Positions 3,913 through 64,000 of a stretch of DNA of 64,000 nucleotides are shown here, piece after piece. Each line of letters begins with the position of its first letter. The stretch's first letter is position 1. The DNA is taken from NCBI RefSeq assembly GCF_000968135.1, contig NZ_FO538765.1, forward strand, positions 1,999,819 to 2,063,818, in the 5' to 3' direction. Below the pieces are notes generated by a model. It was not told where the DNA came from. It did not search any database and saw nothing but the letters and a program-made list of their open reading frames with translations. This stretch comes from Magnetospira sp. QH-2 (GTDB lineage Bacteria > Pseudomonadota > Alphaproteobacteria > Rhodospirillales > Magnetospiraceae). The translations under genes were made by a program, and so were the position numbers.

Positions 3913-3996
3913 GGCAGCTGTCTCCTCGGCTCGCGCCCCTGATGTCACCGTTAAACCGATGATCTGAGCCTATCTTACCCGAGCGGGAAAGAAAGA

Positions 3997-4073
3997 TGGC
4001 GGGAGTGACGGGACTCGAACCCGCGGCCTCTGGCGTGACAGGCCAGCGCTCTAACCAACTGAGCTACACCCCC
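3997..4073 (-). tRNA. tRNA-Asp (GTC)
   Basis: On the minus strand the sequence folds as a complete cloverleaf. The acceptor GGGGGTG pairs with CACTCCC with one G-U, the anticodon stem CTGGC/GCCAG encloses CTGTCAC (anticodon GTC), the T arm contains GGTTCGAAC, the discriminator is G and the 3' CCA is encoded. The last 15 bases at the 5' side are duplicated immediately upstream. Confidence 0.95.
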
Positions 4074-4088
4074 ACTGAGCTACACCCC
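4058..4088. repeat. 15-bp tandem duplication at the 5' end of tRNA-Asp
   Basis: ACTGAGCTACACCCC occurs at 4058-4072 inside the tRNA gene and again at 4074-4088 just upstream of its 5' end, one base apart. The copy lies in the expected leader of the tRNA transcript. Confidence 0.9.
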
Positions 4089-4276
4089 TTAAAAACCTAG
4101 GCGTTGGCCCGCTTGGGATGCAGAGATGTAAAGCCTCCCCCCCCAGGTGTCAAGCGCTGTTGCCCACCCCATGGTCATATTCTCCCAAGAGACTTGCGAG
4201 GCCGTTGACCCGGGCCTTCAGGTATCGCAAACTACGCCGTCCAATTTGGACATTTCGCATACTCCGGGGCAGGACC

Positions 4277-6349: not shown

Positions 6350-6449
6350 TCGTCGCACCGGCGAATTTTATTCTTTTTTGACCGATTTGCCTTTCTAATG
6401 CGCGAAGCCCCTTGATAGGCTTTGGTTCCTCCAGCGATTGATCCCGCCC

Positions 6450-11937: not shown

Positions 11938-11988
11938 GGCCGGGCTCCATGAAAATGTGGCCGGCAGGAGATCGTACGGATCGATCTT

Positions 11989-12064
11989 TGGTGGGCGGTG
12001 ACGGGTTCGAACCGCCGACCCTCTCGGTGTAAACGAGATGCTCTTCCAGCTGAGCTAACCGCCC
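11989..12064 (-). tRNA. tRNA-Val (TAC)
   Basis: The minus strand gives a standard cloverleaf. The acceptor GGGCGGT pairs with ACCGCCC, the D arm is AGCTCAGCTGGAAGAGC, the anticodon stem TCTCG/CGAGA encloses TTTACAC (anticodon TAC), and the T arm contains GGTTCGAACC. The discriminator is A and CCA is encoded. Confidence 0.95.
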
Positions 12065-12198
12065 ATGACCGTTTTCCCAGATTCCGGCGTGAGATGCAAT
12101 GGGTTAGAGTGTATCCAGCATCAAACATGTCATCCAAACGCGATGATGCCGACCACGGACCCCGTGATCGGCATCACTATTCGCTATGTCAGCCGGAA

Positions 12199-12474
12199 TT
12201 AACCGTTGACGGCGTCCTTCAGGCTCTTGCCAGCCTTAAACTTCGGCTGCTTGGACGCGGGAATCTGGATCTTTTCACCGGTGCGGGGATTGCGGCCTTC
12301 GCTGGCGGCGCGAGCCGCGACGCTGAAGGTACCGAAACCGACCAACCGGACTTCCTGACCGCCCTGAAGAGAAGACGTGATGGCACCAAAAACCGAATCA
12401 ACGGCTTTGCCGGCATCGGCTTTGGACAGACCAGTGCTGCTTGCGACAGCCGCCACGAGATCGTTTTTATTCAC
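12199..12474 (-). CDS. hup: HU-family DNA-binding protein
   Basis: 91-residue histone-like nucleoid protein that bends and compacts DNA as a dimer. The sequence runs MNKNDLVAAVASSTGL at the start, with the body GFGTFSVAARAAS and the DNA-contacting arm EGRNPRTGEKIQIPASK, all standard for HU. The start is GTG at 12474, because AAGGGGGC lies about seven bases upstream; an in-frame start ten codons earlier would break the family N-terminus. It lies downstream of lon, as in many proteobacteria, but has its own promoter and follows a terminator. Confidence 0.96.
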   Translation of the reverse strand: MNKNDLVAAVASSTGLSKADAGKAVDSVFGAITSSLQGGQEVRLVGFGTFSVAARAASEGRNPRTGEKIQIPASKQPKFKAGKSLKDAVNG

Positions 12475-12544
12475 TTGAGGCCCCCTTACAAAAGATGTTT
12501 GCAATTATTACTCACGCTGAATGTTCACTTGGTGAGACGCCCGG

Positions 12545-12574
12545 AGTGTAAAGGGCTCTTTGCCGCTCCGTCAA
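12545..12574 (-). promoter_or_regulatory. Sigma70-type promoter for hup
   Basis: On the minus strand TTGACG at 12574-12569 is followed after 18 bases by TACACT at 12550-12545. This would start transcription roughly 60 bases ahead of the GTG start of the HU gene. Confidence 0.6.
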
Positions 12575-12713
12575 TCGGTGAACGGCGGATTTCCCCAGTT
12601 TTTTGCGCTTTTTCGACCTTTTTCTTCTTGGCAACGGCACCCTTATGGGAAATCACCCCGCCCCGGATTCTCCAGTAGGGGTAGAAGTGGCACTTCAAAC
12701 TCGGTTCCACACG

Positions 12714-50997: not shown

Positions 50998-51175
50998 GGA
51001 AGATAATCCCCCGTTCCTTGGATACCCTATTATCCTAAAGGATATCACAAAGAGTCGCTGTGATTGAGGTCACAGAGCGGAACAGGAATTGAGGCTGTCG
51101 GCGGATATTGGTCGGGGAGACTGGATTAAAACACCCACCTCCCAGTATATTGATATATATGAAACTTTCAAAATT

Positions 51176-51207
51176 ATGTGTACCGTTAGCCAATGTGTAC
51201 CGGTACA
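51176..51207. promoter_or_regulatory. Operator-like direct and inverted repeats
   Basis: ATGTGTACCG occurs at 51176-51185 and 51193-51202, 17 bases apart centre to centre. The second copy continues into the perfect 12-bp palindrome TGTACCGGTACA (51196-51207), and TACAC follows. The gap 50998-51313 holds this and an AT-rich stretch but no supported gene. The repeats lie 107 bases ahead of the next gene. Confidence 0.55.
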
Positions 51208-51313
51208 GTACACCCGCAGAATCAGCGATACAAGCCCCTTGAACTAACACCCTTTCTAATTCTCCAGGGCCTGCCGCCCTGCCCTCCCCCAATACCCAAA
51301 AAAGGAAATGCAG

Positions 51314-53278
51314 ATGACCTCACCACGGTTGCCCGTAAAGGGCCTCCGGGCGGTAGCCACGCCTGTGGACACTTACCACCGCCCGTCACAACGCGGAGTC
51401 GCAGCCCCAGATACATCCAAGGCAACCACTCTGGAGCAGCTAGGCAACGCTCTCAGCACCCTGAACCCAAAACTGGAAAACTTCTTTGTCACCCAGAGGA
51501 AACAGCAGGAAGCCGCCGCTCTGGCCCAAGGTGCCAAGGTATTTTATGACCGGAAGATCGGGGAGAACCAGCACGGCTGGAATTCCCTCATGGATAGCCT
51601 GAAGAAGTCCAACCCCGAGCAATTTGAAGAACTCCAGGGAGCCAACCCGCATGTGAAACGGGGCTATGAGCAGTCCTTTGCCAAACAGAAAGGCTTGGAG
51701 TTCCACGATTTCCTGTCCGATGAATACAGCAAGAACCCGGAGATCGACGGCAAGAGCCTGTGGGAAATCGACGACGCCGGTGCCATGGGCTCCTGGATGC
51801 ACGAAATGCAGCGGACCTTTGCCGAAACCCACGGTATCAATGACATCGACGACGCCACCGCCTTGGACCATTTCTATCCCCAGGTCCGGGAGACACAGAA
51901 GAACTGGCTTCGAACCAACGTCTCCGAACGGCGCAAGCAGATGGTGGACAAGCGCCTGTCTCAGGTGGGTGAAGTTGTCACCTCAGCAATCTACGGCGCC
52001 ATCGTGAATGATGGCTGGCTCCTGGACCCGGAGAGCGCCACCATTCAACTGGCCAAGGTGCTGTCCGAACAAGCCGACAAGGCGAAACAGGATGGTGTCC
52101 GCGACTTCAAACGGATCAATGATCAGGTCTTGTCCTCGGTCATTGCCGTAGCCAGGGCCAACAATGATCTCGATATTCTCGACATCCTGGAGCATGTGCA
52201 GACCTCCCCGGGGAGCTATCTCTCCCGCATTCCGGCCAACCGTGCCGCCATTGAGCAGGCCCGCACCGCCATCAAGAAGCAGGAACGGGAAGAGATCCTT
52301 TGGCGGGAAGGACGGGCAGAGAAGCTGCGGAAGAAGATTTCCGAGGCAGTCGTTGGTCCCGTCTATCAGCAACTGGATGACGCCCTCTTGGATCCCGAGG
52401 TAAGTGTTCATGATCTTCGGCAGGCGGTCAGTACCGCCAAGAAGCGCCTGAGTAAGAACAATCTGACAGCCGATGCCCGCACCCTGGAGGACTACTACAG
52501 CCGCATGGTCCGTAGTGAGCTGGATACACCGCTGGACGACTTCGCCTATTTCTCCATGGTGGATCGGATCATGCGCGGTGATGCCTCTCTCCAGGACATC
52601 TATGCGGGAACCGGGATCAGCTGGAATCAGGATATCGCCCGGCAGCTGACCCAGGACTATAAGTTCTACCATCGTCGCGAGGAGGATAAGGAAAACCGGC
52701 TGTCCGAGCAGGATAACCGAGCCCTGAACTCCCTCCGGGCGGTTCAGAACGGCTACAACTCCCGGATCAGACGGGCAGTCACTGGAGTGGATAGTCTCAC
52801 GGCCATGACCGACACCGGCCTTGCCCGTCGTGCGGCTGAAGCCGAGCTGGCCTTCGCTGCCCGCTTCCGGACCACCCTGGACAAGCTGGACCATATCCCT
52901 GATGCCCTGGAGGCCTCGGAGATCGGGGACAAGCTCTATACCAGCATTATCAATGATCCCCAGTTCCTGCCCCCGGAGGCCTCGGATACCCCGCGCCGGG
53001 TACTCTCCCCGGAGGAAGGGAGCAAGGTGAAGGAAAAGTCCGGCAACGCGCCCTTCAACTCCAGCATGTGGGATGCCCTGCGGATGGCCCCGGATGCACT
53101 GAAGGCGCAAGCCGGGACACAGGGGATGTTCGGAGAGACCCGAGCGGAGTTTGAAACCTACGCCGACCTGTCCAGGGATGGCCTTGGGCCGCTGCCTCAG
53201 TTTGCCCAGAAGATGGGTATCAAGGTGGAAAACTTGATCCGGATGCAGATGCGGTTCTATCCGCAGCCTGAGAAATAG
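51314..53278 (+). CDS. Large phage-like protein, possible internal virion protein
   Basis: 654 residues starting MTSPRLPVKGLRAVATPVDTY; AAGGA stands seven bases before this ATG, so the ATG two codons upstream is rejected. The opening VATPVDTYHRP followed by LEQLGNALSTLNPKLENFFV resembles the start of internal virion or core proteins of T7-like podoviruses. The rest is strongly helical with charged repeats (REEILWREGRAEKLRKKIS, YYSRMVRSELDTPLDDF). No signal peptide or membrane segment is visible. If correct, it would enter or line the phage head core and be ejected with DNA. Alternative: an unrelated large helical phage protein. Confidence 0.5.
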   Translation: MTSPRLPVKGLRAVATPVDTYHRPSQRGVAAPDTSKATTLEQLGNALSTLNPKLENFFVTQRKQQEAAALAQGAKVFYDRKIGENQHGWNSLMDSLKKSNPEQFEELQGANPHVKRGYEQSFAKQKGLEFHDFLSDEYSKNPEIDGKSLWEIDDAGAMGSWMHEMQRTFAETHGINDIDDATALDHFYPQVRETQKNWLRTNVSERRKQMVDKRLSQVGEVVTSAIYGAIVNDGWLLDPESATIQLAKVLSEQADKAKQDGVRDFKRINDQVLSSVIAVARANNDLDILDILEHVQTSPGSYLSRIPANRAAIEQARTAIKKQEREEILWREGRAEKLRKKISEAVVGPVYQQLDDALLDPEVSVHDLRQAVSTAKKRLSKNNLTADARTLEDYYSRMVRSELDTPLDDFAYFSMVDRIMRGDASLQDIYAGTGISWNQDIARQLTQDYKFYHRREEDKENRLSEQDNRALNSLRAVQNGYNSRIRRAVTGVDSLTAMTDTGLARRAAEAELAFAARFRTTLDKLDHIPDALEASEIGDKLYTSIINDPQFLPPEASDTPRRVLSPEEGSKVKEKSGNAPFNSSMWDALRMAPDALKAQAGTQGMFGETRAEFETYADLSRDGLGPLPQFAQKMGIKVENLIRMQMRFYPQPEK

Positions 53279-53287
53279 GAGGCACCC

Positions 53288-53371
53288 ATGGACCCTTCTA
53301 TCATCGTGACCGGTGTTCTGGTCAGTGTGCTGCTCTTGGTTCACCTGCCGTGGGATCGGTGGTGGGGCTGA
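53288..53371 (+). CDS. 27-residue hydrophobic peptide
   Basis: Very short frame with GGAGG five bases ahead of the ATG, ten bases after the stop of the preceding gene. It encodes a single hydrophobic helix (SIIVTGVLVSVLLLVHLPW) ending DRWWG. The layout and position fit small phage membrane proteins such as class II holins or spanin-like peptides, but length is at the low end and no family can be named. Confidence 0.45.
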   Translation: MDPSIIVTGVLVSVLLLVHLPWDRWWG

Positions 53372-53406
53372 ACGAGTAAGACGGGGGCGGCTCTGGTGGG
53401 CTGCCT

Positions 53407-54933
53407 CTACTTGCTTTCTCGGCCCTTGTGGTTCATGCCCATCTTATCCATCACCTTGTCCAGTATAGGATTCGGATGCTTGGTGGCCCCTTTCGGCTCT
53501 TCAAGCTTGTCAGCGGGGTTAAATGTCAGCTCGAAGAAGGTTGCGGCTGCGATTTCATTCTCATATTCAGGCGCCTGTTCCTTGAAACCATCAACCCCCA
53601 TTGCCAAGGAATACTTATACCTATAGTGCTCTTTCAATTGAAATAGGTGGTGGTGCTGCGCCGCGCTGAAGCGTGTCAGCCAAATCGCTGGCACCATCAG
53701 CAATACCAGGGCCAAGGTTTTCCCAAGATCAACGCCATCAGCCACAGCATCTATGGCTCCCTCAATCACCTCCCCTTTTGCAGCAACTTCAGGGCCGGTT
53801 TTGGCAGCCTCAGAGGTTTGAGTAATCACAGAAGGCGGGTCGCTGAGATCAATTGACTTGTACAGGTATCCTGCCAGCGGTAATGCAGAGCCAATAAGGA
53901 GCGTGATCGACACATAGAATGCAAGCTTGGCCCATTGTAGTTTGCCATTGATTTCCTCCAAGGTCTCACTGAATGTCGTAGCCAACCCAGCATTCGTTGC
54001 CCCCTTGAGCATCATGTTGGCCTTCTCTATGAGCTGGCCTGCCTCCTTGTTCTTCTCCTCCAAGGACAGCCCCAGATTGTCGGTTAGCTCCTTGTTGGTC
54101 TGATACTTGGCATTTCTTTCATCCAGCGCAGCCTGAAATTCCTCGAACTCAATACCATAACGCTCCACTGCCTGCTTGAGTGCAGCGGACTGGTCACTGA
54201 CCTCGCGGACAGATGCAATCACGGTAGTCGATTCCTGATCCCGCTGGACAACGGCAGCCTGAAGCTCATTGACGTTCTTCAACGCCTTGGCAACCACTTC
54301 ACAGGCGGAGTTCGCCTGTTCGGCGTGGTTGGTGGCATCGTTGAGTCGAAACGATGCCTCGGAAGTGATTTCTTCGATTTCGGCTCTTTTGGTCTCCGCA
54401 TCGCTGAGAATTCCAGCCATGGCCTCCGCTGCATGAGCAAATGCGGAGTACCCAGGGCTGCTGACAATTCCGGCGATCTGGTAAAACTGGATCAGGACGG
54501 AATCCATTTTGTTGACCACGTTCTGAAGCAGCGACGCGAAATTGTGTTCTGCCCCGGTCGCCGCAATACGCACAACCCAGTTGCTTGGGGTTAGGGTGCT
54601 GACTGCGCCTTTCTTGTTACCCTCATCACTCCGTGCCTTCAGTGTCAATACGTCTGGAATAAGCCGATCCAGGTGGCTCTTCAGCCCTGTTATATGGGAA
54701 TCAGGGATGGGCGAAGTGCTCTCCACGTCCTTGAGAGACTGAAGCAGGCCACACATGGCCACCACCCGCTCATTTACCTCCTGGAGCAGGAAGTTTGTCC
54801 CCGGGATCGGTGCTTCCAGGTTGAACCGCTCACCATTCGGAGCCTCAGCCTTCAGCAGGAACCTGTTGATACCCTCCCAGGACTCCTGGATCTGTTCACC
54901 CAGCTGCGCTGCTTCTGCTAGACGCTCTTGCAT
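53407..54933 (-). CDS. Coiled-coil protein with two membrane helices, opposite in orientation
   Basis: 508 residues starting MQERLAEAAQLGEQIQESWEG, with AGAGG about seven bases upstream. Residues ~150-330 are heptad-rich coiled coil (AETKRAEIEEITSEASFRL, ALDERNAKYQTNKELTDNLG). Two hydrophobic helices follow, near 345-370 (AKLAFYVSITLLIGSALPLAGYL) and 415-435 (TLALVLLMVPAIWLTRFSAA). The cytoplasmic C-terminal part contains HHHLFQLKEHYRYKYSLAMG and ENEIAAATFFELTFNPADKL. It lies alone on the minus strand between phage-like genes, as cargo genes often do. I do not recognise the family; a membrane-acting immunity or exclusion role is only a guess from architecture. Confidence 0.75.
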   Translation of the reverse strand: MQERLAEAAQLGEQIQESWEGINRFLLKAEAPNGERFNLEAPIPGTNFLLQEVNERVVAMCGLLQSLKDVESTSPIPDSHITGLKSHLDRLIPDVLTLKARSDEGNKKGAVSTLTPSNWVVRIAATGAEHNFASLLQNVVNKMDSVLIQFYQIAGIVSSPGYSAFAHAAEAMAGILSDAETKRAEIEEITSEASFRLNDATNHAEQANSACEVVAKALKNVNELQAAVVQRDQESTTVIASVREVSDQSAALKQAVERYGIEFEEFQAALDERNAKYQTNKELTDNLGLSLEEKNKEAGQLIEKANMMLKGATNAGLATTFSETLEEINGKLQWAKLAFYVSITLLIGSALPLAGYLYKSIDLSDPPSVITQTSEAAKTGPEVAAKGEVIEGAIDAVADGVDLGKTLALVLLMVPAIWLTRFSAAQHHHLFQLKEHYRYKYSLAMGVDGFKEQAPEYENEIAAATFFELTFNPADKLEEPKGATKHPNPILDKVMDKMGMNHKGRESK

Positions 54934-55195
54934 TCCCCTACCTCTCATCCGAATATTGTGTCAAGTATATACACCAATTTCGAGCGTCAGTGTGTGGTAA
55001 TTGCCAAGCTTCTTTCGGGCCAAATTTCTGAGTGGGTATACGCTATACTCTCGTTGGAAAATTCCCCCCGGTGGGGTGCCCTCTTGGCGTCCAGCCAGCT
55101 GAGAGTGCCCTTCCCAGCTCCCCAGTGAATCCACCAGCAACTCTTCCTCCCGCGCTGCTCCAACGCGATTGACCATCCCGCCCAAACCCATTACA

Positions 55196-55222
55196 ATACT
55201 CTCATCGTTCGTTGAGAGATAT
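55196..55222. promoter_or_regulatory. Inverted repeat at the recombinase start
   Basis: CTCTCA (55199-55204) and TGAGAG (55213-55218) flank eight bases, directly ahead of the recombinase ATG at 55226; the right arm doubles as its Shine-Dalgarno. The left part ATACTCTC also occurs at 55045-55052. It could be an autoregulatory operator or part of a recombination site. Confidence 0.45.
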
Positions 55223-55225
55223 GTC

Positions 55226-55888
55226 ATGGATAAGTTCATCGCCTACTATCGTGTCTCCACCAAGCGGCAGGGTCACTCTGGCCTCGGCCTGGAAGCCCAG
55301 CAGACAGCCGTGAAGGCATACCTGGAGGGCAAGGGCTGGCCTCCTGTCGAGGAGTTCACCGAGGTAGAGAGCGGGAAAAAGGCAGACCGCCCGGAGCTGG
55401 GCAAGGCTCTGACTCTATGTCGTATCCATGGTGCCACTCTGGTGATTGCCAAACTGGACCGACTGTCCCGCAACGCGGCCTTCCTCATGACGCTGAGAGA
55501 CAGCGGGGTGAAGTTCGTGGCAGCCGACATGCCCGATGCCACGCACCTGACCGTGGGAATCATGGCCGTTGTTGCTCAGGATGAGGCAGAGAGGATCAGC
55601 GCGAGGACCAAGGCAGCCCTAGCAGCGGCCAAGGAGCGAGGGACGGAGCTAGGCGGCTTCCGGGGATACGTCCCCACGGATGATGATAGGACCAGGGCCA
55701 CCGAGGCCAAGAAGGAGAAGGCCAGGGCCTGGGCTGCGGACCTATTGCCAATCATTGAAGAGATCAGGGCTACGGGGGTGGACAGCCTGGGTGGCATCGC
55801 AAGGGCATTGAACGACCGGCGCATTCCCACTGCACGGGGCGGAAGGTGGCAGGCGGTGCAGGTGAAGCGGGTATTGGAATCCGGGTGA
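55226..55888 (+). CDS. Serine recombinase (resolvase/invertase family)
   Basis: 220 residues starting MDKFIAYYRVSTKRQGHSG. The catalytic Ser11 lies in YYRVSTKRQ, followed by GLGLEAQQTAVKAYLEGKGW and the conserved ATLVIAKLDRLSRNAAFL with its arginines. MAVVAQDEAERISARTKAAL forms the long E helix, and a helix-turn-helix-like end (SLGGIARALNDRRIPTARGGRWQAVQV) could bind DNA. The size is that of small resolvases rather than large phage integrases. It may resolve, invert or integrate the element. An inverted repeat sits at its start. Confidence 0.93.
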   Translation: MDKFIAYYRVSTKRQGHSGLGLEAQQTAVKAYLEGKGWPPVEEFTEVESGKKADRPELGKALTLCRIHGATLVIAKLDRLSRNAAFLMTLRDSGVKFVAADMPDATHLTVGIMAVVAQDEAERISARTKAALAAAKERGTELGGFRGYVPTDDDRTRATEAKKEKARAWAADLLPIIEEIRATGVDSLGGIARALNDRRIPTARGGRWQAVQVKRVLESG

Positions 55889-56051
55889 CACCTCAGTGAT
55901 ACGTGTGCGGCTGCGAGCTGCCTTGCCTGTCTTTTGTACCATTTTTTTCTGTCTATCACGGGCTGGCACCACCGGTGCTCCAGTTGGAAAATGGTGTGGG
56001 TGGATTAACCACACATCAAGTTCGTAATACATCATATTCTACAGCATTCTA

Positions 56052-56067
56052 TTAAGTTGCACTTAAG
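56052..56067. repeat. Dyad motif, copy 1
   Basis: TTAAGTTGCACTTAAG, in which TTAAGT and ACTTAA form an inverted repeat around TGC. It lies 84 bases upstream of the helicase-like gene. A GTTGCT-GCGTT-AGCAAC hairpin follows about 10 bases downstream. Confidence 0.85.
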
Positions 56068-56151
56068 CCCCCACCCGTTGCTGCGTTAGCAACCAATGGG
56101 AGGCTAACCTCATCTAGATACATCTCATACAATCACGAAAGGAAGAACGGC

Positions 56152-58074
56152 ATGACCGTTGAACCGAACATATTTGTCGAGTCCATGACCAAGCGCTGGT
56201 CCACGCTTGGCAACACTCCCAGCCCACGCTTGCAGGCCGTGTGGCGCATCATGGCTGAAACTTTCAACACTCAAATCGAGAACCACGACAGTGACCAAGC
56301 GACTCGCTGGAGGGTCTTGAACCCGGAAACCGGCGCGGGGAAGACGCAGGGCCTCTCGGTCTACTGCTCCTTGCTCGCTGAAGAGGATCACCCCGGAGTT
56401 CTGATCATCACCCGGATGAAGGTCCAGGCGGATGAGATCGCCGACACGATCAACCTATTGGCCGGTGACGAAGGTACCGCCCTCGCCTACCACAGTGACA
56501 ACCGCGTCCCGGTCATCAACCTGCTTCACCATCCCGTCCTAGTCATCACCCACAAAGCCTATGAAATCGGCATGGACGCGGTAAACCGTGGTCAACCTGA
56601 AGCGTCGAACTGGGACAACTACCACGCTTTCAAGGAAGGTCAGCGTAGGTTGGTGATCATTGATGAGGCCTTGGATATCTTAGAAGAGGCCCGGGTCAAC
56701 CTGGACAAGGTGAACCATGTCTTGGGTCTGATCCCCTCCAAGATCCAGGAAGAACACCCGCTCCAGATTGAAGCCGTGAATTGGATCAAAGATATATTCG
56801 AAGAGATGCAGAAGCGTGGAAAAGGCCGTACTGAGAACCACAGCCGGGCGCTCTACAATGGGCATTTGGATTATCCTGAGAGTCGGGACATGTCTTGCCT
56901 ACGTCGTGCCCTTGTTGGCGTTCGGTTCGACCTGAGTGTCAGTGGCAGAGAGGATGCTGCCGAAAACCGCCGTATCCGGATGAAGATCGACGGATACCTG
57001 AAGGACATCCAAGCCATCATGAGCCATTGGAACTGGTACACCAAACTGTCGACCGAGGGGCACACGATCAACACCGCCCGCATGATCATCCCTGAAGATA
57101 TCAAGGGAGCGGTGGTTCTGGATGCTACAGCTTCCGCCAATGTGGTCTATGACCTGTTCGACCGAGCGACCTTCACCGAGACCCCAAGGTGTCGGAAGTA
57201 CGGGAACGTGACCTTGCACGTCTCCAAGGGGCATTCGGTGGGCAAGGTATCACTGACCAGGAAGGCCAAGGACGTGGCTGAGAAGCTGTTCAGCAACATC
57301 ACCGAGAAGTTGGGCGAGGACCGGAAGGTCTTCATGGTCTGTCATCAGGCCCTAGAGCCGCATCTGATCCAATACCAGGATGCCCACTTCAGTTCATACG
57401 ACGTGGGCCATTGGTGGGCGTTGGACGGTCGCAACGACTGGCAGGACTATGACGCTGCCGTGATTTTCGGTTTGCCCTACAGGGATCCGACATGGTCAGC
57501 AAATGCCTTCATGGCCCTACAGGGGCAGCGATCAACCAGCTGGCTGAACAGCGATGGAGATCGCCCGTTCAAGACCTACCGTGACATTCGGCAGGCTCTT
57601 AACACGGGGCATATCGTGGTGTCAGTGATCCAGGCCATCAATCGTATCCGGACCCGTCGTGTGATCGACGAAGATGGAAACTGTAGTACAGCTGATGTGT
57701 TCCTCCTACTGCCTGGGGGCGAGACCGGGGAGACCATTCTTGAAGGGATTGCACGGGAGATGCCGGGAATTGAAGTGGTGGACTGGAAGTTCAAGGACGC
57801 CACCCGCAAGCCGCGACGGTCAAACCATGCAGAAGCTCTGGTCCGGTACATGGTGAGTATGAGACCAGGGAAGAAGGCAGTCACTCGGGTACGGGAGGAA
57901 CTGGGGATCCCGTCGTCCACCTGGGAGCGGCTGACCGTGCGTCTCAAAGATCCTGAAGATGAATTGGCAATTCGATTAGAGGAAGTGGGCTGTCGGTACA
58001 TCCTGGGGAATGTCGGAAGGCGGGTTCATGCTTTCCTGACCAAGGACGAACGACCACGGGTGACCCCCATATAA
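56152..58074 (+). CDS. SF2 helicase-like protein
   Basis: 640 residues. Walker A is in LNPETGAGKTQGLS (residues 61-65) and Walker B in RLVIIDEALDIL (DEAL at 171-174). VVLDATASANVVYDLF looks like motif III and QAINRIRTRR like motif VI, so the protein has the set expected of an SF2 DNA or RNA helicase/translocase. The C-terminal ~110 residues (AVTRVREELGIPSSTWERLTVRLKD) may be a DNA-binding winged helix. GGAAG lies about eight bases before the ATG. It is the largest plus-strand gene after the recombinase and is preceded by copy 1 of the dyad motif. Its role in replication or mobilisation is inferred. Confidence 0.8.
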   Translation: MTVEPNIFVESMTKRWSTLGNTPSPRLQAVWRIMAETFNTQIENHDSDQATRWRVLNPETGAGKTQGLSVYCSLLAEEDHPGVLIITRMKVQADEIADTINLLAGDEGTALAYHSDNRVPVINLLHHPVLVITHKAYEIGMDAVNRGQPEASNWDNYHAFKEGQRRLVIIDEALDILEEARVNLDKVNHVLGLIPSKIQEEHPLQIEAVNWIKDIFEEMQKRGKGRTENHSRALYNGHLDYPESRDMSCLRRALVGVRFDLSVSGREDAAENRRIRMKIDGYLKDIQAIMSHWNWYTKLSTEGHTINTARMIIPEDIKGAVVLDATASANVVYDLFDRATFTETPRCRKYGNVTLHVSKGHSVGKVSLTRKAKDVAEKLFSNITEKLGEDRKVFMVCHQALEPHLIQYQDAHFSSYDVGHWWALDGRNDWQDYDAAVIFGLPYRDPTWSANAFMALQGQRSTSWLNSDGDRPFKTYRDIRQALNTGHIVVSVIQAINRIRTRRVIDEDGNCSTADVFLLLPGGETGETILEGIAREMPGIEVVDWKFKDATRKPRRSNHAEALVRYMVSMRPGKKAVTRVREELGIPSSTWERLTVRLKDPEDELAIRLEEVGCRYILGNVGRRVHAFLTKDERPRVTPI

Positions 58075-58148
58075 TCCACCCCCTCCTCTATAGGGATAAG
58101 TGGGGGCCATCGATCAATCAATCCTACCCCGCCCTTCTCTTTGGTCAC

Positions 58149-58273
58149 CACGATCAGTGGCCCGGGCGTAGCAACTCTTGTCCATCATCAGCAGGCTTCA
58201 GTGTCACCGCCCGATGAGCTGAAGTGGAGACCAGAAAGGGTGGCGGGGTACAGGGAAGCACGATCAGTGGCCC
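58149..58273. repeat. Direct repeat of CACGATCAGTGGCCC
   Basis: CACGATCAGTGGCCC occurs at 58149-58163 and 58259-58273 in the 221-base gap between the helicase-like gene and the Bro-N gene, 110 bases apart. No gene is supported in this gap. Confidence 0.8.
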
Positions 58274-58295
58274 CAGAGATCAACCTCAGTCGGAT

Positions 58296-58811
58296 TTATC
58301 TCTCCGGTTCCCTCTCTCTCTGCGCCTCAACCACGGCCTGCGCTTCATCACGCTCCTGGGTCAGGCGTTCAACTTTGGAGCTGAGAATTCCCATGGCCTT
58401 CAGGACTAGTTCATCCTCGCTCATCTCCCCCGTCTTCACCTTCTCCTCACCCATGATGTAGGCTCCGTCCTTGCGGATGGTCGGGAGGACTTCGCGAGTT
58501 ACCCAGTCCTGGAACGGTTGGGCCTTCTCCTTATCGGAGCGCATGATGAGTTTGTAGAGGCCAGACTCAGGCACGATCAGGGTCATCGGATGGAGACCCC
58601 CAATGTTGTTGGGGCTCACTTCGCGGAGCTGCGCCACCTCATCTTGGTGCAGGTGACGAACAGCCATCGTGGTGTTCACGTCTACGCGCCCGTGTCTCTC
58701 TCGAATGTACGATCCGAGAACATAGCAAACGTCCACTGCGACGAACCACGGCTCGTCATCAATGGTCACCACGCGGATCTTGTGGAGGTCTGCCTCGGTG
58801 TAGGCACCCAC
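58296..58811 (-). CDS. Bro-N domain antirepressor-type protein
   Basis: 171 residues. IRVVTIDDEPWFVAVDVCYVLG is the Bro-N start, and ESGLYKLIMRSDKEKAQPFQDWVTREVLPTIRKDGAYIM its conserved end. A coiled coil follows (VERLTQERDEAQAVVEAQRE). The start is GTG at 58811, forced because a stop codon sits two codons upstream. No good ribosome-binding site is seen. Phage Bro-N proteins are usually antirepressors or DNA-binding regulators, so it could act on the dyad motifs. It is oriented against the main gene direction. Confidence 0.9.
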   Translation of the reverse strand: MGAYTEADLHKIRVVTIDDEPWFVAVDVCYVLGSYIRERHGRVDVNTTMAVRHLHQDEVAQLREVSPNNIGGLHPMTLIVPESGLYKLIMRSDKEKAQPFQDWVTREVLPTIRKDGAYIMGEEKVKTGEMSEDELVLKAMGILSSKVERLTQERDEAQAVVEAQREREPER

Positions 58812-59090
58812 TATTCAGAATGGTGGGTGGTCTGACAATCTGCCCGACTGACTTGGTGAACAGCAGGTCCAATGTTCCCCCGCACATTATGCTGGGAAGA
58901 CCGTCATCCAATCGTTGAAAAAGACATCACCCGCCCTGCGGCAACCCGCCTGAGACCTTCTCACATGTGGGAAGTTCTTTCGTAATATCAATAGCATAGA
59001 TAGAATTTTTCAGACATACAAGGCTGGTATTCTCTGACTCGCTGACTCATTGTCTCTCCTCCACTTCAACAGAATCCGGAGAACAAGCCT

Positions 59091-59228
59091 GTGTCCATCA
59101 ACATCAAGAACACCTTTGTCATTGAGCTGCACCGCTGGTCCATCTTTCTCATCGCCCCGTTGGTGGGAGACCTCTTCCTCAGCCGCCACGTCCTGGCAAT
59201 CAATTCCAAGGAGTATTACTTATCCTAA
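59091..59228 (+). CDS. 45-residue hypothetical peptide
   Basis: Small frame starting GTG (MSINIKNTFVIELHRWSIFL), with GGAG about nine bases ahead. The segment WSIFLIAPLVGDLFL could be an amphipathic or membrane helix. A longer frame overlapping it in another phase has no protein-like composition. Copy 2 of the dyad motif lies 15 bases after its stop. Real coding status is uncertain. Confidence 0.4.
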   Translation: MSINIKNTFVIELHRWSIFLIAPLVGDLFLSRHVLAINSKEYYLS

Positions 59229-59242
59229 TACCATCAAAATTA

Positions 59243-59258
59243 TTAGGTTGCACTTAAG
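59243..59258. repeat. Dyad motif, copy 2
   Basis: TTAGGTTGCACTTAAG, differing from the other two copies at one base in the left arm. It lies 95 bases upstream of the DUF3102 gene. Confidence 0.85.
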
Positions 59259-59353
59259 CGGGAGCAGAACCGCCACGGCAGCCTGTCTCGGTTCCCTCGC
59301 CTTCCTCACCAGCGCAATCATGCGCATCCGACATCCGGAAAGGACCCCAAGAC

Positions 59354-59995
59354 ATGAACAACACCACTGCACTGACCCGTACCCCCCTGTCCCTCCTTGC
59401 GAACGCCATCAACCACCACCATGACCTCGTGAAGTCTCACACCAAAGGGATGCTCCTGGAGGCACAGGCTGCCGGGGAGAAGTTGCTCCAGGCGAAGAAG
59501 GAAGTGGAGCATGGAGAGTTCAAGCCGTGGATCGCTGAGAACTGCTGGTTCAGCTACGCCACAGCGAAACGCTACATGCGGGTCGCCAAGCTCCACGACA
59601 AAGGGCTCAAGGTTGAGCCTTTTGAGGACGGCATGGCCGCCTTCCTCGACGCTCACGCTGAGAAGAAGGAACGTCCCGCCCAGCTAAACGCATCCCACTT
59701 CCACGAAGAGGACGCGGAGTATGTCCTCAAGCTTAACGCTCTGGTCGAGCGTGGTGTCGGTGGAGAGGCCGACAACGCCGCTCGGAAGCTGGATGTCCAC
59801 GCTGCCCGCTTCGGCATGACCGGTGAAGAGGTGGTCGAGAAGGCGCTGAAGGTGAAACCCGAGGTGGTCGAGAACCCGATTGAAGATGCCATGAACGCGG
59901 AGGTGGAACGGCTGCTGAAGCCGTATCTGAGCATGAACAAGGGCGAGCTTCTACATGTGATCCTGGATTTCGTCCTGGCACAGGGAGGGAAATGA
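59354..59995 (+). CDS. DUF3102 family protein
   Basis: 213 residues. LEAQAAGEKLLQAKKEVEHGEFKPWIAENCWFSYATAKRYMRVAK is the DUF3102 core, a helical domain common in phages and plasmids whose function is unknown. The C-terminal part (AARKLDVHAARFGMTGEEVVEKALK) is helical and acidic. AAAGGA lies about ten bases upstream of the ATG. A 31-bp segment (59687-59717) reappears at 60283-60313. It is followed after one base by the next gene. Confidence 0.85.
   Translation: MNNTTALTRTPLSLLANAINHHHDLVKSHTKGMLLEAQAAGEKLLQAKKEVEHGEFKPWIAENCWFSYATAKRYMRVAKLHDKGLKVEPFEDGMAAFLDAHAEKKERPAQLNASHFHEEDAEYVLKLNALVERGVGGEADNAARKLDVHAARFGMTGEEVVEKALKVKPEVVENPIEDAMNAEVERLLKPYLSMNKGELLHVILDFVLAQGGK
59687..59717. repeat. 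31-bp direct repeat, copy in the DUF3102 gene
   Basis: Bases 59687-59717 are identical to 60283-60313, 596 bases away in the same orientation. Here the repeat is in frame and encodes ASHFHEEDAE. Confidence 0.9.
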
Positions 59996-59996
59996 C

Positions 59997-60347
59997 ATGA
60001 CCGTACAACTTACAACGAAGCAGAAAGCCGCACTCTTTGATCGGATGCTTGAAGAGGGTGGTGTCGAACCCCAGTACCTGATTGCCGACATGAGCACCTC
60101 TCTTGCTGACGCGGTGCGGAAGAAGTCCAAGCACACCTTCACCAGTGAGAACACAGGGCTGACCATCACCTCTTTGTTCGCTGTGTTACAGGCCATGGGG
60201 TTCACCTACAACAAGCGGTCGCCGACTGCACGGCAGCGGTGGGCACAGGCGGGGGACATCGCTGCATCGTTCCCGTCCTTCCAACGCATCCCACTTCCAC
60301 GAAGAGGACGCGGGAGAAGCACAACCTTTCGCACAAATTTTTCATAA
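59997..60347 (+). CDS. Hypothetical phage protein with a recombined C-terminus
   Basis: 116 residues starting MTVQLTTKQKAALFDRMLEEGG, with GGGAGG upstream and one base after the DUF3102 stop. Residues ~1-92 look protein-like (QYLIADMSTSLADAVRKKSK, TSLFAVLQAMGFTYNKRS) and resemble a helix-turn-helix DNA-binding fold. The final ~24 residues (FQRIPLPRRGRGRS) come from the 31-bp repeat read in another frame and have odd composition. The gene may therefore be truncated and its end replaced by recombination. No family is recognised. Confidence 0.65.
   Translation: MTVQLTTKQKAALFDRMLEEGGVEPQYLIADMSTSLADAVRKKSKHTFTSENTGLTITSLFAVLQAMGFTYNKRSPTARQRWAQAGDIAASFPSFQRIPLPRRGRGRSTTFRTNFS
60283..60313. repeat. 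31-bp direct repeat, second copy
   Basis: Identical to 59687-59717. Here it is read in a different frame at the end of the preceding gene and appears to define the novel C-terminus. Confidence 0.9.
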
Positions 60348-60365
60348 GACCTCAATCATAATCAA

Positions 60366-60381
60366 TTAAGTTGCACTTAAG
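60366..60381. repeat. Dyad motif, copy 3
   Basis: TTAAGTTGCACTTAAG, identical to copy 1. It heads a ~280-base stretch that contains no convincing ORF and ends in a strong terminator. Confidence 0.85.
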
Positions 60382-60644
60382 AAGGACATGATATCGTTTC
60401 GCTCCCTGTTGCGATGGATTGTCCAGGATCTGGGAACCGGCATTGATGCAGGCGTAGCAGTTCAGCACCGAGGTGAGGACCGCACAGTCCAGCTTGGAGG
60501 CCTCCGTTGAACCGGCGATCACCGCCGCTCCTGCCGCGTTCCCAGTTCCACTTTTATCAGCGCTCTTCGAATCCCATTTCCTTTTCTATCTCTGCAAGTT
60601 GGAGGGGTTGCCGCTTTGATGTATCAGCGGTGCCCCTCTTTTTT
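60382..60644 (+). ncRNA. Candidate untranslated RNA unit between dyad motif and terminator
   Basis: The 371-base gap 60348-60718 has the dyad motif at one end and a terminator near the other. The only start codon near the motif (60388) has no properly spaced ribosome-binding site and gives a 40-residue peptide of unlikely composition. The stretch could be a small RNA transcribed from the motif. This is a hypothesis, with no structure modelled beyond the terminator. Confidence 0.25.
60602..60644 (+). terminator. Strong intrinsic terminator
   Basis: GAGGGG and CCGCT pair with AGCGG and CCCCTC around a short loop (one small internal bulge), followed immediately by six T. It lies 75 bases ahead of the next gene and closes the unit that begins at dyad copy 3. 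Confidence 0.85.
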
Positions 60645-60718
60645 CGCATGTGATATCGGATTGAATCGAAGACCGCTCCTCTCCCCATGAACTTCCAACC
60701 AATGGAGGACCCGGAGCC

Positions 60719-60937
60719 TTGAAGCGTACCCTAAAGACTGGGAGCAACCCAGCACGACGCCTCTTCACACCCACCCCCGCGATTGCATCCGTCCAGGCAT
60801 CCTACAGCGACTTGGTCGGCACCGACGTGAGCCTGTCTGTATTGCTGGCCCGCGCCGTTGAAGTCCTGGGCAGTCACCTAACACAGACTTCTCCAGGCAT
60901 TGAAGCAGCCGCACTGGAAAGGATCACCAGACCATGA
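60719..60937 (+). CDS. Small hypothetical phage protein
   Basis: 72 residues starting at TTG (MKRTLKTGSNPARRLFTPT), with GGAGG about ten bases upstream. The last part (SLSVLLARAVEVLGSHLTQTSPGIEAAALERI) is helical. Its stop overlaps the next start as ATGA, which supports coding. No family is recognised. Confidence 0.55.
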   Translation: MKRTLKTGSNPARRLFTPTPAIASVQASYSDLVGTDVSLSVLLARAVEVLGSHLTQTSPGIEAAALERITRP

Positions 60938-61224
60938 ACACAAAAATCAAAACCGCCAACCTGGAGCAGTTGAAAAGCCTCTGGCAGTCCCTCCTTGATC
61001 GGCTGACAGAAGCCCTGAGCAGCTCAGAGAAATGCACCGCTTACCAGCTCTATGTCGCCCGACAGTTCCTCAAGGACAACGGGATCAACGCCGATGCCCT
61101 AGTCTCCAACAACAAGAATACCATGGCCGCGCAGCTGGAAACGCTGAAGGACATCGATCTGGACATCGATCTGGGCGGAGATGGACAAGCCAGTTCCTGG
61201 GGTGAAGAAGAAAAGTTTCACTAA
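60934..61224 (+). CDS. Small-terminase-like protein
   Basis: 96 residues. LEQLKSLWQSLLDRLTEAL, YQLYVARQFLKDNGINADAL and an acidic end (DIDLDIDLGGDGQ) resemble the ARQFLKDN-type small terminase subunits of podoviruses, which recognise phage DNA for packaging. This match is from memory of the motif, not a search. It is coupled to the preceding gene by a four-base overlap. A large terminase partner is not in the window. Confidence 0.5.
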   Translation: MNTKIKTANLEQLKSLWQSLLDRLTEALSSSEKCTAYQLYVARQFLKDNGINADALVSNNKNTMAAQLETLKDIDLDIDLGGDGQASSWGEEEKFH

Positions 61225-61237
61225 AAGGACCACGACC

Positions 61238-61384
61238 ATGGACAGAGAAGACCTGTACCGCCGTCTTGAGCGGAACAAAGGGCGGGAATGCGCCGTGTAC
61301 CGGTGCTACCACCATGTCTCCGGGCTTGGTCAGTACTGTAGAAAACACGCGAACTGCCGCCATGCCCACGGCCACCCTCTCTGA
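61238..61384 (+). CDS. 48-residue Cys/His-rich peptide
   Basis: Starts MDREDLYRRLERNKGREC, with AAAGGACC about eight bases before the ATG. The rest has spaced Cys and His (CAVYRCYHHVSG, QYCRKHANCRHAHGH) suggesting one or two zinc sites. A longer in-frame start at 61181 overlaps the previous gene and is less likely. Such zinc-knuckle peptides occur in phage genomes, but no named family can be assigned. Confidence 0.6.
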   Translation: MDREDLYRRLERNKGRECAVYRCYHHVSGLGQYCRKHANCRHAHGHPL

Positions 61385-61423
61385 CGCCGCGTCAAAAGCT
61401 CCGAGCTAAGGCCCCACTTCAAG

Positions 61424-61903
61424 ATGGCAAAGGAGTTCATTCACCTCAACAGCGACCACACCGGCATTGTGAAAGCCTGTGAATTGCTCCAGGGGATGAC
61501 CCGCCATGCCGTCTGTTCAGACAGTCTACCCAGCCATGCTTCCCCCAAACAGAGGGCGGATCGGTGGCTCTCCCGCATGAGGGAGCAAGGGATTGATCCA
61601 AAAGACATGCTTGCCGTCGTTCTGTCTGTCCACCTCCTGCGTAAGTTCAGCCCGGGCACGTTCCAAGACACTCAGCACTTCAATCACCAACTGACACGGC
61701 GGCTATTCGAAATTGTGCGTCCCCGGTCCAAATTATCAACAACCGGGAAGAGCATATTATACGACACCGTAACCCCAAAAATCCGGGATTACATGACAGA
61801 GCGGCTTAAACCGCTGGATCTTCTACTTCATCGCATGGTGGATGAGATCGACAGCAGGCAGCCCAAACTTATCGAGGGATCAGAGAACCCGTTCCTCAAC
61901 TGA
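61424..61903 (+). CDS. Hypothetical phage protein
   Basis: 159 residues starting MAKEFIHLNSDHTGIVKACELL. It is helical throughout (KQRADRWLSRMREQGIDPKDMLAVVLSVHLLRK, MTERLKPLDLLLHRMVDEID). The upstream purine run is weak, so the start is less certain. No family is recognised. Confidence 0.65.
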   Translation: MAKEFIHLNSDHTGIVKACELLQGMTRHAVCSDSLPSHASPKQRADRWLSRMREQGIDPKDMLAVVLSVHLLRKFSPGTFQDTQHFNHQLTRRLFEIVRPRSKLSTTGKSILYDTVTPKIRDYMTERLKPLDLLLHRMVDEIDSRQPKLIEGSENPFLN

Positions 61904-61944
61904 CATCCCACCAAAATCAACTTGTAGAGAAGGATACCCACACC

Positions 61945-62862
61945 ATGGGAACCACTGTAGTAACCCCGGATGGCACGTTCAGCCACCCGAACGATGCTGG
62001 AGGCAAATCAACTGCCCCGCCCCCCGTCACCGCTGTTGACCCAGAAGGTCGGATCACCCAGGCAAGAAGCGAAGGTGGGCGCCGCCTGACCGGGGACAAG
62101 ATCACCGAGAATGACATTGTCTCCATCAACGGAGGTGAATCCACCATTAAGGCCTGGGAAGCAATGGGCTATCTCCAGCGCAACCACGATGGTTCGTTCT
62201 CCATGACGGATAAGGCCACCGGTATGGACAAGCTGCGTCCGAAGGGCATCAAACCCGGCAACCCTACTGAAGCTGCCCCCGAGACCGGGGAGGCAGCCTC
62301 CGACGATGAAGATACGGATCAGCCCGCCATGGAAGGGCTAGACGGAGATACCGAGACCTTGATTACCGAAGTCGCCAATGGAGCCCAGCCCAGCGACGTT
62401 CTGAGTTCCATCATGTCCGTAGCCAAGACTGGCGAGTTCAATCAAGCCGCAATGGGGCGCATTGCTTCCTCTTTGGGGCAGGAACCGGAAGCGGTGATGG
62501 AGAAAGCGAACAGCGTCCGTGCTGCCTTCGAATCCCAGGCCATCCGAACTGTTGAAAAGACAGGCCTGAGTAGCGACGACGTGTTCGGTTGGGCCTATGA
62601 GCATGAACCGAAGATGATGCAAGAGGCAATCCGGCAACATACCAATTACCGCCATACCGAGGGCTACCAGCCGGTCATTCAGAAGTACGTCCAGAACCTG
62701 GATACGATCAATCCGGACATGATCCTGAACGCCCAGTTCGGTGAAGGTGTCGAAGCTTTCCGGGACGACGGGGGACGGATTGTTCTCAAGTCCGAAAAGG
62801 GCACTGTTCCTTGGAAGACAGCGGTACGGATAGGGATGGTCTCTCTTGGCCGCGCCCGATGA
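61945..62862 (+). CDS. Phage-type protein, possible scaffold or head-assembly protein
   Basis: 305 residues starting MGTTVVTPDGTFSHPNDAGGK, with AAGGA about ten bases upstream. The N-terminal part is Gly/Pro/Thr-rich, the middle is acidic and disordered (EAASDDEDTDQPAMEGLDGD), and the C-terminal part is helical (GRIASSLGQEPEAVMEKANSVRAAF, QEAIRQHTNYRHTEGY). Acidic disordered segments followed by helices are common in scaffolding proteins, but this is a composition-based guess. It sits between the small-terminase-like gene and a string of tiny genes. Confidence 0.55.
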   Translation: MGTTVVTPDGTFSHPNDAGGKSTAPPPVTAVDPEGRITQARSEGGRRLTGDKITENDIVSINGGESTIKAWEAMGYLQRNHDGSFSMTDKATGMDKLRPKGIKPGNPTEAAPETGEAASDDEDTDQPAMEGLDGDTETLITEVANGAQPSDVLSSIMSVAKTGEFNQAAMGRIASSLGQEPEAVMEKANSVRAAFESQAIRTVEKTGLSSDDVFGWAYEHEPKMMQEAIRQHTNYRHTEGYQPVIQKYVQNLDTINPDMILNAQFGEGVEAFRDDGGRIVLKSEKGTVPWKTAVRIGMVSLGRAR

Positions 62863-63031
62863 ACCGGTAGCAGGCATCAAGTGTATGTCGTGGCTGTGGC
62901 CGCCAGACTGGAATGTGTTTCAAGAGGTAGTCGGCCAACGCCACGGCGGGCTGCCCTTCCGCATCCTGTGGTTCGACAACGGGGAGCAGGTTCGACAATT
63001 CACTGTTCCAATCCACGGCTACGACACCTGA
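62846..63031 (+). CDS. Small hypothetical protein
   Basis: 61 residues from TTG (MAAPDEPVAGIKCMSWLWPP), overlapping the end of the preceding gene; an ATG at 62885 would shorten it by 13 residues. RILWFDNGEQVRQFTVPIHGY looks like a beta strand pair. No family is recognised. Confidence 0.5.
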   Translation: MAAPDEPVAGIKCMSWLWPPDWNVFQEVVGQRHGGLPFRILWFDNGEQVRQFTVPIHGYDT

Positions 63032-63065
63032 CCAACAAGAACGAAAACACAAGACGGGAAACACA

Positions 63066-63329
63066 ATGCCCGAGTTCGAATGGCAGACAGAGAAAGCCTT
63101 GAAATGGCGGCGGAAGGATACGGCGACATGCCGCGCTGCCCGCCTCAGATCCAAATACCCAGACTATGACCAGACCAAGGACCCCTATGGGCCATGGTTT
63201 CAAGCATTCCAGAGTACGAGAAAGGAACGAGCGTATGAGCGCGATTTCACAAGACGAACGCCTGAAAGCAGGCAAGACGACGATTCAGGTGAATCGATCA
63301 GGCCCCCGAACCCGGGTAAGCTTCGTTGA
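63066..63329 (+). CDS. Small hypothetical protein
   Basis: 87 residues starting MPEFEWQTEKALKWRRKDTATC. The first ~60 residues have protein-like aromatic and charged composition (SKYPDYDQTKDPYGPWFQAF). The last ~25 residues overlap the next gene in another frame and look atypical, so the true end may lie earlier in evolution. Shine-Dalgarno is weak. Confidence 0.5.
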   Translation: MPEFEWQTEKALKWRRKDTATCRAARLRSKYPDYDQTKDPYGPWFQAFQSTRKERAYERDFTRRTPESRQDDDSGESIRPPNPGKLR

Positions 63330-63537
63330 TTCCCGTGGCCGCGAGGTGGTCACCTACGATGACGAAGTGGTCCGCTTGGTCGAGACCATCCGTGATGGAT
63401 CGGGCGAAGTGCAGCCCATCAAGCGGGTTGAGAGTAAGGGCCTGACTGATGTGAATACCGGCAAGCCCCGGCTGCCCAAAGGCTGGGAATCCAAGATGAT
63501 CGATTTCAGGCTTCCGCCCGGCTTCCGGTACGGTTGA
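63235..63537 (+). CDS. Hypothetical phage protein
   Basis: 100 residues starting MSAISQDERLKAGKTTIQVNRS, with AAAGGA about nine bases upstream. RTRVSFVDSRGREVVTYDDEVVRLVETI suggests a small beta-barrel. It overlaps the previous frame by 95 bases, unusual unless one of the two is spurious; this one has the better ribosome-binding site. No family is recognised. Confidence 0.6.
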   Translation: MSAISQDERLKAGKTTIQVNRSGPRTRVSFVDSRGREVVTYDDEVVRLVETIRDGSGEVQPIKRVESKGLTDVNTGKPRLPKGWESKMIDFRLPPGFRYG

Positions 63538-63558
63538 TCAATGAAGGATAAAGTCAGG

Positions 63559-64000
63559 ATGCAATTCAAGAGCCAGAAAATGGTGACCCTGCTCAATGGG
63601 GACACCCAGACCGCCACGCATACCACGACCACTGTATTTCGGGATGGTACGCGGAAGGTCACCACCACCAGCTATCCGCTTACGCCTCAAGAGGTCAACA
63701 GCGTTCAATCTGTGCCAGAAGACGATACCGCGAAGAGCTACAGCAGCCTATCAATCCCAGCGGTTGAGGCCGAACCTCATTTCGGTGATCTGAAATTCCC
63801 GCCTACTTCGATCCCAACAGACGACAGCGAGACCGAGGACAGTGGTGATGGTGAAGATTTCCACCGGAGCGATGTAACCAAAATCAAGCAGAATGAAAAC
63901 GGCTCCTATGTGGTCTGGTTCTGGGATGGCTCCTGCCATGAGCTGCCACCCGAGGACCACGTAAAGTACCTCTATGACATGCTCCGGGACCTCAACGAAG
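63559..64000 (+). CDS. Hypothetical phage protein, cut by right edge
   Basis: Open to the window end. I place the start at 63559 (MQFKSQKMVTLLNGDTQTAT), because AAGGA lies about ten bases upstream; an ATG at 63541 would add six residues. The sequence is Thr/Ser-rich with TTTTVFRDGTRKVTTTSYPL and later NGSYVVWFWDGSCHELPPEDH. Possible structural or adaptor protein; not recognised. Confidence 0.6.
   Translation, partial: MQFKSQKMVTLLNGDTQTATHTTTTVFRDGTRKVTTTSYPLTPQEVNSVQSVPEDDTAKSYSSLSIPAVEAEPHFGDLKFPPTSIPTDDSETEDSGDGEDFHRSDVTKIKQNENGSYVVWFWDGSCHELPPEDHVKYLYDMLRDLNE

Follow-up and report, generated by a model that had tools for sequence, protein, structure and literature searches.

A cargo gene of a small phage-like element in Magnetospira sp. 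QH-2 belongs to an unnamed family of membrane proteins with a candidate anti-phage role

Results

Gene and host element

We analysed a 64,000-nt stretch of the Magnetospira sp. QH-2 genome (assembly GCF_000968135.1, contig NZ_FO538765.1, positions 1,999,819–2,063,818 of the forward strand), referred to here as the window. A minus-strand open reading frame occupies 53407–54948, with an ATG at 54948 and another at 54933; the latter is the more likely start, and AGGTAGGGGA, which resembles a ribosome-binding site, lies immediately upstream of it. The resulting gene (Table 1) is real: 508 open codons would arise by chance with an expectation of about 4e-10 (simple base-composition model, GC 0.534), and the GC content at the three codon positions (0.597/0.383/0.623) follows the pattern of a coding frame. 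The genome holds one copy, and a promoter and terminator scan gave no excess over shuffled sequences. The preliminary description had presented it as a lone minus-strand gene within a phage-like region. It does run opposite to both flanking genes, but the Bro-N antirepressor and the tyrosine integrase of the same region are also on the minus strand, and the gene is thus alone only with respect to its two neighbours.

The phage-like region was bounded as an integrative element of 14.8 kb with few phage genes, inserted at a tRNA-Pro gene and covered by window positions 51108–64000 together with positions 1–5704 of the overlapping locus L005. Its ends are marked by an exact 20-bp repeat, the right copy of which overlaps the 3' end of the intact tRNA gene. 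This was the longest exact repeat between the compared flanks, ahead of one of 13 bp, and the number of such matches expected by chance is about 5e-5. Host-type genes lie outside on either side (BKACE and NMT1 on the left, DUF192 on the right).

Table 1 Features of the element (nucleotide positions in the window unless L005 is named) and of the window protein (residues).
Feature	Position	Strand	Remarks
Left element end, 20-bp repeat TTGGTCGGGGAGACTGGATT	51108–51127		Second copy 14,758 bp away, L005 from 5685
656-aa protein	51308–53278	+	21% identical over residues 17–298 (E 7e-5) to gp37 of CRP-125
Gene of interest	53407–54933	−	508 aa
Serine recombinase	55226–55888	+	Resolvase domain; Recombinase domain partly matched
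640-aa protein	56152–58074	+	Weak AAA match under cut-off; helicase-like by eye
Bro-N antirepressor	58296–58811	−	
DUF3102 protein	59354–59995	+	
Terminase small subunit-like	60934–61224	+	phrog_891, E 1.8e-9
Tyrosine integrase, 458 aa	Just inside right repeat, beyond window	−	Within element
tRNA-Pro, intact	L005 5686–5762	−	3' end overlapped by right repeat copy
Variable N-terminal part	Residues 1–225		Window protein
Long helical rod	Residues about 226–312		Window protein
Membrane-proximal helix	Residues 313–336		Window protein; T-x-x-GLA-x-x-F
TM1	Residues about 337–356		Window protein; hydropathy
Loop	Between TM1 and TM2		Window protein
TM2	Residues about 400–425		Window protein; hydropathy
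Conserved helix	Residues 431–440		Window protein; F-x-L-x-E-H-Y-x-Y-K
Tail	C-terminal, after conserved helix		Window protein

The 656-aa protein upstream is likely a T7 gp15-like internal virion protein. Its match, gp37 of the Autographiviridae phage CRP-125, is situated after the tail tubular protein genes. Used as a query against viral contigs, the 656-aa protein found nothing, and searches of phage records and viral contigs likewise gave no relative of the 640-aa protein. The serine recombinase is a second recombinase of the element besides the tyrosine integrase, and a near-palindrome, GTATACGCTATAC, is located upstream of its gene at 55036–55048.

A PICI-type satellite would have an integrase, a length of about 15 kb and a terminase small subunit of its own, and would lack capsid genes. 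The element has a tyrosine integrase, a length of 14.8 kb, a TerS-like gene, a virion-like gene and several unassigned ORFs; a satellite and a decayed T7-like prophage fit equally well. T7-type portal (PF12236) and terminase (PF17289) profiles searched against the whole genome each matched one place, neither inside the element. Both places fall in a separate region at about 317000–347000 of genome contig C1 (loci L101–L103), with a head-tail connector (PF12236, E 1e-130) at 344599–346026 and the terminase profile at 317335. When this region was considered as a possible helper, comparison of 14 element proteins and the element DNA with its surrounding 80 kb gave no match. The window gene lies outside any P2-type interval, and among its assigned genes the element carries T7-type ones (the virion-like and the small terminase-like gene) and none of P2 type. 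The gene is best explained as cargo, a 'lysogenic conversion' gene that this small, integrative, phage-like element carries.

Protein organization and predicted topology

The long coiled coil and two membrane helices named in the preliminary description were both recovered. An AlphaFold model of the window protein, built on 49 rows, contains helices at residues 227–312, 314–361 (with TM1) and 394–456 (with TM2), the first being a single uninterrupted helix, and the best 19-residue hydropathy windows begin at residues 337 and 407. By ten-residue block, pLDDT reached 85–96 over 241–300, 93–95 over 321–350 and 91–94 over 411–440, whereas the model as a whole is poor (pLDDT 67.7, pTM 0.35). The model of an E. 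coli-type member, from viral contig L048, was better (82.3, pTM 0.42) and comprises an N-terminal helical bundle (1–124) followed by helices 130–283 and 289–347.

Conservation is concentrated around the membrane segments. Over 47 rows, mean conservation was 3.20 bits after TM2, 2.61 in TM2 (block 399–422), 2.53 before TM1 and 2.51 in the tail, against 1.58 in the N-terminal part (140 of 225 columns usable), 1.71 in the rod and 1.50 in the loop (15 columns). Eight columns are invariant across 49 rows: F321, F431, L433, E435, Y437, K440, G449 and P473.

Both ends of the family's proteins are probably cytoplasmic, as judged from mean K/R counts over the 47 rows: 2.32 in the 12 residues before TM1, 1.36 in the loop and 4.26 in the 25 residues after TM2. 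The window protein taken alone departs from this pattern of its kin, with 2 before TM1, 4 in its 51-residue loop, the longest among the 47 rows, and 3 after TM2. Two hydrophobic stretches were assigned in 47 of 47 rows, partly by construction, since the script picked the best such stretches inside fixed ranges.

Domain and structure searches

Scans of the window protein against Pfam and NCBIfam gave no match above curated cut-offs, and neither an enzyme domain nor a nuclease or other DNA-acting domain was found in them. The Pfam SieB domain of superinfection exclusion was absent in a scan to E 0.1. Searches against PADLOC 2023 returned no family beyond coiled coil for the window protein (best E 0.0016, DndD, along the rod) and likewise for three relatives (best E 0.00058). 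We rejected identities with SMC, DndD, JetC, ZorA and tape-measure proteins, the matches to which track the coiled coil, and we read the matches from sequence searches against solved structures as coiled-coil or chance matches. The family, however, is held in PHROGs as of 'unknown function': the window protein matched phrog_30912 (E 1e-8) and phrog_34659 (E 4e-4), and three relatives matched the latter at 6e-87 to 1e-75. The earlier statement that the soluble end has no recognised family therefore stands for Pfam and NCBIfam but not for PHROGs.

The structure prediction proposed as a check gave a helical rod and modelled transmembrane helices, at low overall confidence, and Foldseek found nothing under E 0.001 with either the window model (PDB and viral models) or the L048 model (PDB). 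No channel fold was identified for the window protein. Structural alignments to alpha-pore toxins, ESCRT-III, MLKL, Rx and many unrelated long helices gave Z scores of 8–11, within the norm for helical models, and these candidates were set aside. In titles and abstract openings, we found no published function of, or phage test on, any family member by accession, PHROG name or protein features. A figure in PMC13092281 presents validated systems with transmembrane and coiled-coil parts, which might or might not include the E. coli-type member.

Family membership and distribution

The C-terminal half of the window protein belongs to a large unnamed family corresponding to PHROG 30912/34659. A profile built with the window clade (the window protein and its relatives at loci L024 and L052) left out retrieved the C-terminal half at E 1.7e-15 (Z 177635), and the best of 4000 shuffled sequences reached E 43. 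What the window protein has in common with the family is this C-terminal half, with the hairpin and the F-x-L-x-E-[DH]-Y-x-[YF]-K helix. Together with L024 and L052 it forms a separate clade, whose N-terminal part is different. This clade had support of 100/98 in a tree built from 54 rows of the C-terminal half, where the window protein has a long branch and the deeper placements are uncertain. The C-terminal parts of the clades match each other at E 9e-11 to 7e-17, and their N-terminal parts gave no convincing match; the E. coli-type N-terminal part was not recognised in the window protein (full profile E 1.7; hhalign probability 39.6).

The family is rare. At E 1e-5, profile searches matched 11 of the 385 genomes taken from the class, and at E 1e-10 they matched 6 of the 398 taken from the phylum, with the window's own genome counted in each. 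The weakest match in the class, in a 1378-aa frame of genome G360 (E 4e-6), may reflect coiled coil by chance. Alignment confirmed 28 of 107 pattern-matching stretches in viral sequences and 35 of 152 in genomes. With the window protein alone as query, 100 genomes yielded a match in its own genome only, a viral-contig scan yielded nothing, and tblastn at E 0.01 yielded one phage record (Providencia PSTCR8lys) and two plasmids; with the Agrobacterium member as query, 15 plasmid records were matched, its own included. Close copies occur in 12 of 5426 E. coli genomes by megablast, which detects near copies only, and 4 of these 12 are versions of strain HS. Named hosts among the relatives include members of Pseudomonadota, Bacteroidota, Thermodesulfobacteriota and Nitrospinota.

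Locations of the relatives

We read the surroundings of part of the 63 loci that carry relatives. The clearest case is L048, a contig close to P2, in which the relative replaces fun. It lies at 5602–6903 between G (end 5304) and FI (start 7414), and the genes around it are 99% (J), 99% (I), 96% (H), 86% (G), 98% (FI), 100% (FII) and 98% (T) identical to those of reference P2. In reference P2, fun(Z) occupies the G–FI gap, and the record notes that cloned fun blocks T5 growth; fun has no match in L048. In E. coli HS, this gap holds no annotated gene.

At a second P2 site, the old/tin interval between the replication endonuclease and the portal, a relative was present in E. coli HS (WP_001003256.1), MB50 and 2017.02.04CC, the three of the 12 E. 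coli matches that were examined. The same site is filled in the P2-like region of a Klebsiella plasmid and in viral contig L039, and in L035 the relative is on the portal side. These prophages are P2-like and not P2 (portal 61% and A 31% identical). The stretches from HS, Klebsiella and L039 gave no match to the tin or old gene of P2. Relatives of the window protein therefore take the same slots as P2 old, tin and fun(Z), in loci where the P2 genes themselves show no sequence match at their sites. The P2 genes also run against the neighbouring late operons (O, V, F; along with P–Q), as the window gene runs against its neighbours, but P2 Old is an AAA ATPase, whereas the window protein has no ATPase domain above cut-off. 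The old/tin site is a defence hotspot according to Rousset et al. (PMC9122126) and Vassallo et al. (PMC9519451), and Vassallo et al. also mention another, with fun.

Relatives are also carried by P4-type satellites (L077, from Yersinia similis, and L049). The primase of the L077 satellite is 40.6% identical to P4 alpha, and the satellite further encodes a DUF6088 (AbiEi-like) protein and, by eye, an AbiEii-like ORF. Beside its family member, at 4127–5356 on the minus strand, L077 also encodes a 409-aa protein with N-terminal hydrophobic stretches and no Pfam match at E 0.001, which may be another cargo gene.

Elsewhere, Pfam matches place L052, the closest full-length relative of the window protein, next to Mrr, L054 next to AbiH, and L083 next to an OLD-like TOPRIM protein 26% identical to P2 Old. 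We also read a NERD-like ORF at L083, consistent with one NERD+UvrD match in the neighbour pool described below, and a relative on a Vibrio plasmid has an annotated Abi family gene second downstream.

One relative bears on whether these are phage structural or morphogenetic proteins, such as a tape-measure or ejection protein. At L024 the gene lies, by eye, between tail-chaperone-like and tape-measure-like ORFs, and the window protein itself has a weak PHROG tape-measure match (E 0.02) along the rod. That match is to the coiled coil only, L024 has a separate 1174-aa tape-measure-like ORF after the relative, and L048 keeps P2's own tape measure besides its relative. Relatives also occur outside phages, and the window gene has the opposite orientation to the virion-like gene that precedes it. 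A structural role is thus scarcely credible.

Neighbour control

We compared the ORFs nearest the relatives with ORFs farther away at the same loci. The near pool held 129 ORFs that lie at most two places from one of 34 relatives on genome contigs (35 loci, with L053 left out for a frame problem), and the far pool held 87 ORFs 5–6 places away (93 chosen, 6 dropped at contig ends). The ORFs were chosen by length without a gene finder, and some are therefore not genes. The near pool matched 135 PADLOC models, many of them redundant, and the far pool 31; these tallies count matching models and are not per-ORF rates. Among the 25 of 135 near-pool matches listed there are about six kinds (NERD+UvrD, mREase_IV, Old/AriA/GajA, AbiEi, PDC-S51 and PDC-M01B), and the 25 of 31 listed for the far pool comprise more kinds, including PDC-S20, PifA, QatA, PtuB, mad3, mad8, mREase_IV, NsnB, PycC, AriA, RT-Protease and others. 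Judged by the models listed (25 of 135 against 25 of 31), local enrichment of defence genes near the relatives was not seen relative to ORFs 5–6 places off. It is therefore the slots in phages and satellites, and not the general neighbourhood, that carry the argument for defence.

This result counts towards an alternative in which the gene is cargo unrelated to defence: it might provide membrane anchoring by which the element is maintained or replicated, or have a role in stress or fitness that serves the element or its host. Consistent with such a role, plasmid relatives are found directly upstream of a small integrase gene, one relative lies within a zot-bearing, inovirus-like stretch, and by eye some have housekeeping neighbours (glycine cleavage at L055, pyruvate oxidoreductase at L070 and HypF at L074). 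A maintenance gene would not be expected in the old/tin and fun places, however, and a single gene swapped among unrelated elements, with the few E. coli near copies noted above, also argues against it. We consider this alternative rather improbable.

Discussion

Candidate anti-phage role

An anti-phage role of some kind is probable for the window protein, because its relatives recur in slots where phages carry anti-phage weapons; the basis for this is the relatives' places only. The preliminary description had suggested an immunity, superinfection exclusion or abortive infection gene. The relatives at fun, at old/tin, in P4-type satellites and beside AbiH, Mrr and OLD-like genes bear out the general direction of that guess, tempered by the flat neighbour control and the housekeeping neighbours of some members. 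What is new here is a candidate, a family without a name in a well-known kind of phage cargo slot.

Proposed mechanism

As to how such a protein might act, we tentatively propose a sensor-gated membrane effector causing abortive infection, a reading that is possible but held at less than even confidence. The two-helix hairpin would anchor the protein in the inner membrane, with the N-terminal part and the long rod on the cytoplasmic side and a short stretch exposed outside. Something that an invading phage makes or does would be sensed by the variable N-terminal part, and the rod would relay this signal to the conserved helices on both sides of the hairpin. Oligomeric hairpins might then open or disturb the membrane, and the infected cell would halt before the phage multiplies. 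A variable head joined to a conserved membrane part is the arrangement that would be expected of a sensor and an effector. Since no enzyme domain was found, the effector step would most simply be a change in the membrane hairpin itself.

The chief rival is superinfection exclusion at entry, in which an inner-membrane protein would block or divert phage DNA or ejection proteins and leave the cell unharmed. A membrane anchor with a long cytoplasmic rod would suit such a protein, and the old/tin and fun-site contexts serve it equally well. There is also a precedent: according to PMC13190303, the membrane-bound anti-phage nuclease SNIPE acts at injection and combines a membrane anchor with a cytoplasmic DUF4041 part, an arrangement like the one proposed here. 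Both DUF4041 and GIY-YIG are nevertheless absent from the window protein (Pfam scan to E 0.1), and no DNA-acting domain of any other kind emerged from the scans. The occurrence of relatives in very different elements, including the zot-bearing stretch, and in Bacteroidota is ill-suited to one common entry route, and the most conserved part of the protein is predicted to be cytoplasmic. We regard exclusion at entry as somewhat unlikely, and favour a membrane effector over blocked DNA entry because the membrane-flanking helices are the most conserved part and the N-terminus is variable.

RexAB is a membrane-depolarising abortive-infection system. The likeness of the proposed membrane effector to it, and to other depolarising abortive-infection systems, lies in the proposed outcome only: the window system is a single gene and gave no such match in the Pfam and PADLOC scans.

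If the membrane effector reading is correct, one unnamed family would explain recurrent single-gene cargo of P2-like phages, a P4-type satellite, plasmids and some defence neighbourhoods, and such cargo would pair a changing head with a constant membrane part. L048, close to P2 and with fun replaced, is a natural allele swap.

A broader version of this reading is a long shot. The family would constitute a one-protein bacterial immune executioner, spread from Pseudomonadota to Bacteroidota, in which a variable cytoplasmic sensor head drives the conserved hairpin, and the E. coli-type head would be linked to eukaryotic membrane-acting cell-death domains. The L048 head, predicted as a helical bundle, resembled the coiled-coil domain of plant Rx (Foldseek probability 0.97 but E 0.29; Z 10.7 and rmsd 2.8 with 100 aligned) and the MLKL killer domain (Z 8.1–8.8). 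Helical bundles reach such scores by chance, however, and unrelated bundles score alike; a profile of the L048-type head found neither Rx nor MLKL in the PDB, and the model of the window protein itself does not show an Rx/MLKL-like bundle. As modelled, the resemblance of the E. coli-type head to these bundles is a lead and not a finding.

Among the loci surveyed, L007 holds two 388-aa ORFs, at about 4303–5469 on the plus strand and at 11491–12657 on the minus strand, about 7 kb apart and identical over their first 25 residues, which are probably an inverted pair of insertion sequences.
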